From NCBI RefSeq assembly GCF_025717605.1, contig NZ_JAJIRQ010000007.1, positions 124,001 to 188,000 of the forward strand: 64,000 bases of DNA, read 5' to 3'. Numbering within the stretch: position 1 is the first letter of the stretch; each line of letters begins with the position of its first letter. The notes beneath the pieces are model-generated. The model searched no databases. It was not told where the DNA came from and saw nothing but the letters and a program-made list of their open reading frames with translations. Made by a program: the position numbers and the translations under genes. Source of the stretch: Paucibacter sp. TC2R-5 (GTDB lineage: Bacteria > Pseudomonadota > Gammaproteobacteria > Burkholderiales > Burkholderiaceae_C). This document shows, one piece after another, positions 13,717-15,592 of this stretch.

Positions 13717-14298
13717 CTAACCCCGGTCGAACTTGAACACCGCCATGCTGGCAAGCAGATTCGGGAAGCTACGCACCGCGTGGCCGTCCTGGATGCCGAA
13801 GCTGTCCAGTATGCGCAGCCGGTTCTTGCGCGCCAGCACCTCAAAGTCGGCGAAAGTGCCGACCCGAATATTGGGCGTGTTGTACCACTCGTAAGGCAGC
13901 ACCCGCGTCACCGGCATGCGGCCCAAGGCCACTTGCAGGCGATTCGGCCAATGGGCGAAATTAGGGAAACTGACGATGCCGATGCGGCCCACGCGGGCGG
14001 TTTCACGCAGCATTGCCTCGGTATTGCGCAGATGCTGCAAGGTCTCCAACTGCAAGACCACATCGAAGCTCTGATCCTCGAAGATGGTCAGCCCGTCTTC
14101 CAGATTGAGCTGGATCACATTGACACCGCGCTGAGCGCAGGCCAGCAAATTGGCATCATCCAGTTCGACCCCGTAGCCGGTGCAGCCTCTATGCTTTTGC
14201 AAATAGGCGAGCAACTCGCCTGTGCCGCAGCCCAGGTCCAGGACGCGCGAGCCGACCGGCACCAAGGCCGCGATTTGTTCGATGACGCCGGCGCTCAT
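13717..14298 (-). CDS. metW: Methionine biosynthesis protein MetW
   Basis: This 193-residue protein has a class I methyltransferase-like fold with [14 protein letters not shown] (SAM-binding glycine motif near residue 23), and [10 protein letters not shown] and [17 protein letters not shown], which are hallmarks of MetW. MetW is the partner of proteobacterial MetX acyltransferases and is needed for full homoserine acylation in several species. It overlaps metX by 4 bp (ATGA), so the two are translationally coupled and share the SAM-II-controlled transcript. Confidence 0.93.
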
Positions 14299-15434
14299 GC
14301 TGCCTCTCCTGCAATGCGAGTGAAATAGGCGCGCAAGACGCCGTGATAGCGCGGGTCCTCCAACAAGAAGGCGTCATGCCCATGCGGCGCGTCGATTTCT
14401 GCGTAAGACACGTCAAGCTTGTTGTCCAGCAAGGCCTTGACGATCTCGCGCGAGCGGGCCGGCGAAAAGCGCCAATCGGTCGTGAAGCTTGCGAGCAAGA
14501 ACTTGCAGCGCGCGCTGGCAAAAGCGCGGCTGAGGTCGCCGCCAAACTCACGCGCCGGGTCGAAGTAGTCGAGCGCGCGGGTGATCAAGAGATAGGTATT
14601 GGCGTCAAAGTAGTCACTGAACTTGTCGCCCTGGTGGCGCAGATAGCTCTCGATCTGGAACTCGATGTCCTGAGTCGTGTAGCCCAGCTCGGCGGCGCGC
14701 ATTTCGCGCCCGAACTTCTGCTCCATCGCGTCGTCCGACAAATAGGTGATGTGGCCAATCATCCGCGCCACGCGCAGGCCGCGCTTGGGGATCGCGCCAT
14801 GCTCAGCGTAATGGCCGCCGTGGAAGTCGGGGTCGGTGATGATGGCGCGCCGCGCCACTTCGTTGAAGGCAATGTTCTGCGCCGACAGCGCCGGTGCGGT
14901 CGCTATCGCGATGCAGTGACGCAGGCGTTCGGGATACCGCAAGGCCCAGTCCAGCGCCTGCATGCCGCCCAGCGAACCGCCCAAGACCGCTGCCAATTGC
15001 GTGATGCCTAACTCGTCAAGCACACGGGCCTGAGCATCAACCCAGTCTTGCACGGTGACGACGGGGAAATCGGCGCCGTAAACCTTGTTTGTCGCCGGAT
15101 TGATGTCGCGCGGCCCGGTCGAGCCAAAGCAGGAGCCGAGGTTGTTGATGCCGATGACGAAGAACTTGCTCGTATCCAGCGGTTTGCCGGGGCCGATCAG
15201 GTTGTCCCACCAGCCTTCGCTTTTGTCCTGGCCCGCGTAGGTGCCGGCGACATGGTGGCTGGCGTTCAGCGCATGGCAGACCAGCACCGCATTGCTGCGC
15301 GCGGCGTTCAGCTCGCCATAGGTCTCGTAGACCATCTCGTAGTCGCGCAACTCAAGCCCGCTGCGCAGGCGCAGTGGCTTGGCAAAAGCCATGCGCTGAG
15401 GGCTGACGTCGCCCAATTGACCCATATGTGGCAT
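14295..15434 (-). CDS. metX: Homoserine O-acyltransferase (acetyl/succinyl) MetX
   Basis: MetX acylates homoserine, the committed step to methionine. It is a 379-residue alpha/beta hydrolase-fold protein with the nucleophile elbow GGSLGGMQ (Ser about 154), [12 protein letters not shown] in the substrate site and the catalytic His in [10 protein letters not shown]. Many proteobacterial MetX enzymes use succinyl-CoA; the donor cannot be settled by eye. The start MPHMGQLGD at 15434 is supported by GGAGG 10 bases upstream (15445-15449), rather than the longer frame from 15467, which would run through the terminator hairpin region. The leader carries a SAM-II riboswitch and intrinsic terminator. 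Confidence 0.93.
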
Positions 15435-15449
15435 CAGTGAAAAGCCTCC

Positions 15450-15490
15450 AAAAAACAAAACCGGCACCGCTGAGAGTAAGCGGACGCCGG
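15450..15490 (-). terminator. Intrinsic terminator in the metX leader (riboswitch expression platform)
   Basis: Read on the minus strand, arms CCGGC and CCGCT pair with AGCGG and GCCGG around a 7-base loop (15461-15490), followed directly by TTTTGTTTTTT. It sits between the SAM-II aptamer and the metX Shine-Dalgarno, as expected of a transcription attenuator. The CCGCU of the aptamer core (15513-15509) repeats the 5' arm of this stem and could pair with AGCGG instead, giving a mutually exclusive antiterminator. That alternative fold is inference. Confidence 0.75.
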
Positions 15491-15498
15491 CTTGCGGA

Positions 15499-15553
15499 GT
15501 CCCTCTTTAGCGGAATTTATTAAGCGCCCGCAATTCGGAACAAATCGGCGCTG
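15499..15553 (-). promoter_or_regulatory. SAM-II (SAM-alpha) riboswitch aptamer upstream of metX
   Basis: On the minus strand the leader reads AGCGCC, GAUUUG, loop, AUUGCG, GGCGCU, UAAUAAAU, CCGCUAAAG, AGGGA. This is the order of the SAM-II consensus. P1 is AGCGCC (15552-15547) with GGCGCU (15528-15523). The GAUUU and AUUGC loop segments, the AAUAAAU stretch and the invariant GCUAAA follow. UUCC in the loop (15540-15537) can pair with the 3' GGGA to close the pseudoknot. SAM binding should lower metX-metW expression. The match was made by eye, not by a covariance model. Confidence 0.85.
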
Positions 15554-15559
15554 GGGAGC

Positions 15560-15565
15560 ATTATA
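15560..15565 (-). promoter_or_regulatory. -10 element TATAAT of the metX promoter
   Basis: A perfect TATAAT on the minus strand lies 7 bases before the first base of the SAM-II P1 stem. Transcription would thus begin at or just before the aptamer. No good -35 is seen at 17 bp, because that position falls in the upstream terminator hairpin. Confidence 0.6.
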
Positions 15566-15566
15566 A

Positions 15567-15586
15567 GAGGGCCGTCGGGAGCCCTC
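15567..15586 (-). terminator. Hairpin between sppA and metX
   Basis: Arms GAGGGC and GCCCTC enclose an 8-base loop 7 bp after the sppA stop codon. On the minus strand it is followed by TTATAAT, so a weak terminator for sppA appears to overlap the metX -10 element. The T-tract is short, so efficiency is uncertain. Confidence 0.55.
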
Positions 15587-15592
15587 CTGAAT

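Follow-up and report, generated by a model that had tools for sequence, protein, structure and literature searches.

The methionine genes metX and metW of Paucibacter sp. TC2R-5 lie directly downstream of a minus-strand leader (15565-15434 of the 64,000-nucleotide stretch analysed here, contig NZ_JAJIRQ010000007.1, positions 124,001 to 188,000, hereafter the window) that is, judged from its letters, a genuine SAM-II riboswitch of the known class, with S-adenosylmethionine (SAM) as its inferred ligand, and that very likely acts as a transcription-attenuation OFF switch for the two genes. The leader carries the sequence elements of the class and matches its covariance model, it is conserved in relatives, its computed folds compete, and its pairing partners covary, the covariation being uncorrected for relatedness. 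We also regard as probable, as one joint claim, that GCUAAA and its neighbours double as the antiterminator strand, the ligand pocket and the expression platform sharing bases; that the terminator's complement to the SAM-binding strand is lineage-specific (AGCGG, AGCCG, UUUAGC or UUUUGGC); and that the metXZ RNA element, the Rfam family RF02424 (on the wrong strand) and SAM-II are one thing.

With an E-value threshold, the best Rfam match to the leader was RF00521 (SAM_alpha, SAM-II), which spans 15561-15486 on the minus strand and the full length of the model at 34.0 bits (E 4.1e-6; curated cut-off 36 bits). A first-pass annotation of this DNA had read a 'full SAM-II consensus' here and proposed a covariance-model search as the check; the search returned the match, full-length and below the curated cut-off, so that the wording was slightly generous. 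RF00521 was found in 15 of 16 close relatives and exceeded the cut-off in 11. Rfam at its curated cut-offs gave no match in the window, and in the 5.1-Mb genome the leader is the sole RF00521 match at E <= 1e-3 (E 1.2e-5). GAUUUG, UUGC and GCUAAA, which we take to be the ligand-pocket segments of SAM-II with GCUAAA as the SAM-binding strand, are all found in the leader, and UUGC can pair with the GC of GCUAAA, as in the SAM-II structure.

For comparison we assembled 81 metX leaders, namely that of the window and those of 80 loci (the best 80 of 588 from a MetX search; loci are numbered with the prefix L), most of which are labelled as Burkholderiales or their genera. The aptamer pattern occurs in 76 of the 81, in 71 by a strict definition and in 5 more by a relaxed one, and neither form was found in L008, L013, L036, L059 or L072. 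A hairpin followed by a U-tract is present in 65 of the 71 strict-pattern leaders, and these 65 form the set used in the tests below.

Growing transcripts were folded with ViennaRNA, and the SAM-bound form was imitated by constraining the aptamer strands. In RNA ending between 15467 and 15463, CCGCU (15513-15509) pairs with AGCGG (15471-15467) at a probability of 0.94-0.97. This is the alternative pairing that had been proposed from the letters, but it is just the outer helix of a larger antiterminator that continues with AGAG 15506-15503/CUCU 15476-15473, GGAC 15502-15499/GUCC 15485-15482 and CCG 15497-15495/CGG 15489-15487. In this way the stretch 15513-15495 can base-pair with the terminator's 5' arm and loop together with the five bases that open its 3' arm. 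Free RNA extending to 15464 adopts the antiterminator together with P1 at -30.0 kcal/mol, and RNA extending to 15461 adopts the terminator fold at -32.2 kcal/mol, with the energy gap widening as the U-tract is added. When the aptamer strands are blocked, the computed fold contains the terminator and not the antiterminator; with these strands held as in the SAM-bound form, the terminator pair probability is 0.76 at 15467, 0.44 at 15465 and 0.98 at 15463. Across the 65 leaders, at the stage where five bases of the 3' arm exist, the terminator 5' arm pairs mainly with the core end and linker in 58 cases and with the aptamer in the remaining 7. Computation and covariation together make it well supported that the leader encodes a predicted terminator and a mutually exclusive antiterminator.

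The covariation emerges from the comparison of distinct leaders across the order. In 37 of 86 distinct leaders the terminator contains a 5-bp complement to that leader's core five-mer, where permutation gives 23.0 (standard deviation, sd, 3.1; P 0.0002); counting Watson-Crick pairs only, the figures are 22 of 86 against 10.8 (sd 2.4), with 0 of 5000 permutations reaching the observed count. The first-pass annotation had named covariation of CCGCU/AGCGG as a further check, and it is present order-wide with relatedness uncorrected, while the complement is absent in 49 of the 86 leaders. When the complement was sought at the start of the 3' arm alone, the CCGCU/AGCGG-type pairing was limited to 16 of the 65 leaders, all of them with CCGCU cores (16/31; other cores 0/34), and widening the test to the whole terminator and the whole order changed this result. 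Where the core is CAGCU or CUGCU, many leaders draw on different complements of that strand: terminators hold a complement of at least 6 bases to GCUAAAG in 24 of the 65 metX leaders and in 9 of 35 order-wide leaders, and among control hairpins taken from elsewhere in the same DNA the figure is 9 of 369. In Comamonadaceae-type leaders this complement usually coincides with the terminator apex, GUUUUUAGC or GUUUUUGGC, which is retained while the surrounding stem varies. The window's own leader has GCU/AGC only as a complement to GCUAAAG and relies on CCGCU/AGCGG, AGAG/CUCU and GGAC/GUCC. The GGAC/GUCC register is mostly kept across 19 leaders with a related terminator (17-19/19 per column), and one of its columns reads G-C in 3, G-U in 5 and A-U in 4, accounting for 12 of the 19. 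In 62 of 65 leaders the native linker gives a better fold than the median shuffle of that linker (p <= 0.05 in 18/65), and swapping linkers among 44 distinct window-like leaders gave a mean energy of -15.3 (sd 0.39) compared with -18.0 for the native arrangement, with 0 of 2000 swaps as low.

In the mechanism that we propose, transcription would start at about 15553. At low SAM, 15513-15495 (CCGCU, AGAG, GGAC, CCG) would pair with 15489-15467 (CGG, GUCC, CUCU, AGCGG). The terminator's 5' arm and loop would thereby be taken up along with the first half of its 3' arm, and polymerase would pass on to make metX-metW. With SAM bound, the GCUAAA-GAGGGA strand would be locked in the P2 pseudoknot and the antiterminator blocked, so that the hairpin 15490-15461 could form ahead of the U-tract and transcription would stop after about 100 nt. 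We infer SAM binding, the start site, and the direction and kinetics of switching from the elements and folds described above.

Several results weigh against this mechanism. The leader's RF00521 score lies 2 bits below the Rfam cut-off, and the SAM-bound state was imitated by constraints that carry no binding energy. The free full-length RNA prefers the terminator without SAM (0.96 at 15461, 0.99 from 15458 on), and once the full 3' arm has been made the terminator is the main state in 52 of 65 leaders, the linker being the main partner in 10 and the aptamer in 3; because the full-length fold favours the terminator without SAM, the switch has to be either kinetic or leaky, with the decision taken during transcription. 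Kinship among the sequences inflates the permutation and Fisher tests in all four comparative tests. The linker-shuffle test was not significant for the window's leader alone (p 0.155); shuffling without the 3' arm gave a weaker result (49/65 below the median, 8/65 at p <= 0.05); the linker swap had a small effect in 16 distinct other leaders (-17.2 vs -16.6, P 0.037); and the duplex of linker alone with the 5' arm differed weakly from shuffled linkers (mean z -0.33; 4/65 at p < 0.05). Chance core complements are also common in the 369 control hairpins (87 for CCGCU, 63 for CAGCU, 155 for CGGCU and 111 for CUGCU; those for GGGCU were not counted). Set against native complements of 21/35 for CCGCU, 11/15 for CGGCU, 4/26 for CAGCU, 0/9 for CUGCU and 1/1 for GGGCU, these counts imply that the CCGCU/AGCGG-type pairing is a feature of leaders with CCGCU or CGGCU cores and not of those with CAGCU or CUGCU cores, in which the core/terminator pairing expected from the earlier annotation is no commoner than in control hairpins.

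The preference of full-length folds for the terminator without ligand would also suit an essentially constitutive terminator behind a SAM-II aptamer, with SAM exerting most of its effect through RNA stability or through a leader small RNA (sRNA) that is released. Such an arrangement has been discussed for Sinorhizobium meliloti, where, in passages of PMC9373788, SAM is not predicted to affect the terminator behind the metA SAM-II aptamer and the leader sRNAs RZ and RA2 rise with high SAM. We consider this unlikely for the window, since the intermediate transcripts favour the antiterminator and the pairing partners covary. Translational control, with the metX ribosome-binding site hidden upon SAM binding, is far less likely still, as GGAGG lies outside the aptamer, behind the terminator and U-tract. 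It draws on three order-wide leaders (L120, L129, L132) that have no terminator by our rule and carry the P2a GAGG just ahead of the ATG, where it is a probable Shine-Dalgarno sequence; their layout suggests translational SAM-II switches within the same order. Least likely of all is an antiterminator formed by aptamer bases instead of the linker, in which GCGGGCGC (15531-15524) of P1/P2b would pair with GCGUCCGC (15487-15480) of the terminator 5' arm, near regions 3 and 4 of the metXZ element of Leyn 2014: the run of 8 uninterrupted pairs, the duplex energies, which in close relatives of the window's leader are lower than those of shuffles, and leaders in which the aptamer is the main 5'-arm partner at the half-arm stage (L003, L004, L007, L018, L025, L044, L048; 7/65) or at full arm (L004, L010, L015; 3/65) speak for it, and it was rejected for the window on a probability of at most 0.019 in the partial transcripts, modest separation from controls (<= -14 kcal/mol in 21/65 leaders vs 19/120 controls; <= -18 in 9/65 vs 2/120) and energies close to shuffles in Comamonadaceae-type leaders.

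The elements of the leader and the genes behind it are collected in Table 1. TATAAT, P1, GCUAAA, the terminator, the U-tract and the Shine-Dalgarno sequence stand where the first-pass annotation had placed them, on the minus strand, and its arrangement of a dedicated -10 box, an intrinsic terminator and metX-metW was recovered from the sequence and gene models.

Table 1. Features of the metX-metW leader and its genes, in window coordinates
Feature	Position	Strand	Basis or remark
-10 box TATAAT	15560..15565	-	sequence; 7 bases ahead of P1
Aptamer, whole	15552-15500	-	sequence elements
P1 5' strand AGCGCC	15547..15552	-	sequence, covariance model, folding
GAUUUG, conserved SAM-II loop segment	15541..15546	-	sequence, covariance model, relatives
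Pseudoknot P2a 5' strand UUCC	15537..15540	-	can pair with GGGA 15503-15500
Pseudoknot P2b 5' strand UUGC	15530..15533	-	sequence, covariance model
P1 3' strand GGCGCU	15523..15528	-	sequence, folding
GCUAAA, presumed SAM-binding strand, P2b 3' side	15506..15511	-	sequence, covariance model, relatives
Pseudoknot P2a 3' strand GGGA	15500..15503	-	partner of UUCC
Predicted antiterminator 5' strand (CCGCU, AGAG, GGAC, CCG)	15495..15513	-	folding, relatives
Predicted antiterminator 3' strand (CGG, GUCC, CUCU, AGCGG)	15467..15489	-	folding, covariation; overlaps both terminator arms and loop
Intrinsic terminator hairpin	15461..15490	-	-17.8 kcal/mol
U-tract TTTTGTTTTTT	15450..15460	-	sequence
Shine-Dalgarno GGAGG of metX	15445..15449	-	sequence
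metX	14295..15434 (ATG at 15434)	-	NCBIfam NF047916, 665 bits, cut-off 560
metW	13717..14298	-	TIGR02081, 237 bits, cut-off 189.5

The P1 stem has six pairs (15552-15547/15528-15523), the outer of which is standard in 51 of the 71 strict-pattern leaders (A-U 41, G-C 4, C-G 3, G-U 2, U-G 1), and P2a reaches 3 or more contiguous pairs in 48 of the 71, the remaining 23 having 2. In 68 of the 71, a hexamer resembling a -10 box (at least 4/6 letters) has its end 6-13 nt ahead of GCGCC, a count that has no shuffled control alongside it; no -35 consensus was found before the window's TATAAT (2/6 letters). The place of a -35 region, directly ahead of TATAAT, is taken by a GAGGGC/GCCCTC inverted repeat (15567-15586), which could be a weak end of sppA, the gene that lies upstream of the leader on the same strand and reads towards metX. 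The terminator hairpin comprises 10 standard pairs, of which one is G-U, a single bulged U and a further A-U pair at the loop, and it is absent from the list of a simple terminator scan, an omission that may be due to the bulge. Taken as a whole, the leader shows no striking gain in fold stability over shuffled sequences (z -1.70; as stable a fold in 11 of 200 shuffles). The best NCBIfam model for the metX product is homoserine O-succinyltransferase MetX, and metX and metW overlap by 4 bases. Elsewhere in the genome, two S-adenosylhomocysteine riboswitches score over the Rfam cut-off (contig C3, 76781-76890; contig C12, 107796-107914).

Beyond the close relatives, RF00521 was found at E <= 1e-3 in 137 of 300 genomes of the order and exceeded its cut-off in 51, and the corresponding figures for the phylum were 58 and 49 of 299; both scans used stricter filters, by which some weak matches were lost. 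In 16 Comamonadaceae-type leaders the model was found in 14 at E <= 1 (23.0-32.5 bits), none over the cut-off. A terminator by our rule is present in 35 of 40 order-wide leaders picked from the order scan, and of the 30 phylum-search loci 25 show both the pattern and the hairpin, 4 lack the hairpin and L159 lacks the pattern; several of these (L164, L166, L167) appear by inspection, with no statistic attached, to fold alike, P2 3' strand to terminator 5' arm. Six metX leaders (L018, L035, L044, L052, L055, L057) have extra hairpin-like bases between the P1 3' strand and GCUAAA, and in these Rfam reports no SAM-II at E <= 1. A long-loop variant with about 30-40 extra loop bases after GAUUUG (L028, L037, L054, L081) matches RF00521 at 22.7-42.7 bits (E 1.8e-6 to 0.5). 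On the minus strand of L143, a second SAM-II-like core (GCGCC, ACTTGC, GGGGCGC and GCTAAA, without GATTTG) follows the first core and hairpin, possibly as a tandem SAM-II arrangement. Seven Comamonadaceae-type loci (L046, L048, L053, L066, L068, L069, L078) carry a manganese (yybP-ykoY) riboswitch that scores over its cut-off and lies some 0.7-0.9 kb upstream of metX.

The reading proposed here, of a SAM-II switch that attenuates transcription, would explain the way in which metX-metW is probably matched to SAM across a large bacterial group, and the shared-strand rule offers a simple, testable account of how SAM-II ligand binding is coupled to termination. The Rfam cut-off misses many of the copies in the order, as the genome counts above indicate, and if the joint claim is true, the 'novel' metXZ element and the Rfam sRNA family RF02424 merge into SAM-II; we see the tidying of these two entries, together with the shared-strand rule, as the useful parts of the work.

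RF02424 (Bp2_287, 'Burkholderia sRNA') came from a 2012 sRNA screen that, in passages of PMC3521395, placed it upstream of methionine genes. The family resembles the SAM-II leaders in its place, and its consensus contains the reverse complement of GAUUUG and P1, but it is modelled on the opposite strand. In the window it matches the plus strand at 15455-15587, antisense to the SAM-II leader, at 24.1 bits, well under its cut-off of 70, a score at which the window does not count as a member. Among 100 genomes there were 13 matches, none over the cut-off; 8 are antisense to RF00521 matches, 4 more lie opposite the SAM-II pattern, and L182 does neither. With 12 of 13 opposite SAM-II, the family was probably modelled on the wrong strand. 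Searches of one collection of open-access papers found only the source paper PMC3521395 for Bp2_Cand287 or RF02424, only the Leyn paper PMC4239095 for metXZ together with SAM-II, and only PMC2704228 for 'SAM-II riboswitch' with Betaproteobacteria; the passages on SAM-II or Burkholderia in PMC13273304, PMC2864571 and PMC12452182 do not concern the metX leader described here.

The metXZ RNA element of Leyn 2014 (PMC4239095), as described in passages of that paper, shares with our leaders the genes, the bacterial groups, a block pseudoknot, a terminator and a speculated antiterminator, the last of which was sought in regions 3 and 4, unlike here. The leader blocks GCGCC, GATTTG, CTTGCG, GGCGC, AAAT and GCTAAA fit its text description, and on this comparison by description the 'novel metXZ RNA element' is probably SAM-II. 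SAM-II itself has been placed in Alpha-, Beta- and Gammaproteobacteria (passages of PMC2704228). Passages of Corbino 2005 (PMC1273637) describe SAM-II leaders with putative terminators and with a possible promoter immediately ahead of P1, which were proposed to be OFF switches, and passages of Barrick and Breaker 2007 (PMC2258182) name terminators as the mechanism most often seen with SAM-II in alpha- and beta-proteobacteria; since beta-proteobacterial SAM-II with terminators was already reported in 2007, the present setting is not new for the class. The S. meliloti metZ SAM-II riboswitch, in passages of PMC9373788, likewise has a predicted SAM-induced terminator and a leader sRNA of about 100 nt, and differs in belonging to an alpha-proteobacterium and to metZ. 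As far as the passages of PMC1273637 and PMC2258182 describe them, earlier SAM-II cases share with the Paucibacter leader the aptamer, a possible promoter near P1, a putative terminator between P2 and the gene, methionine genes downstream and a proposed OFF direction, whereas the present leader differs in preceding metX-metW in Burkholderiales, in scoring just under the Rfam cut-off, and in coming with an explicit predicted antiterminator and its covariation.
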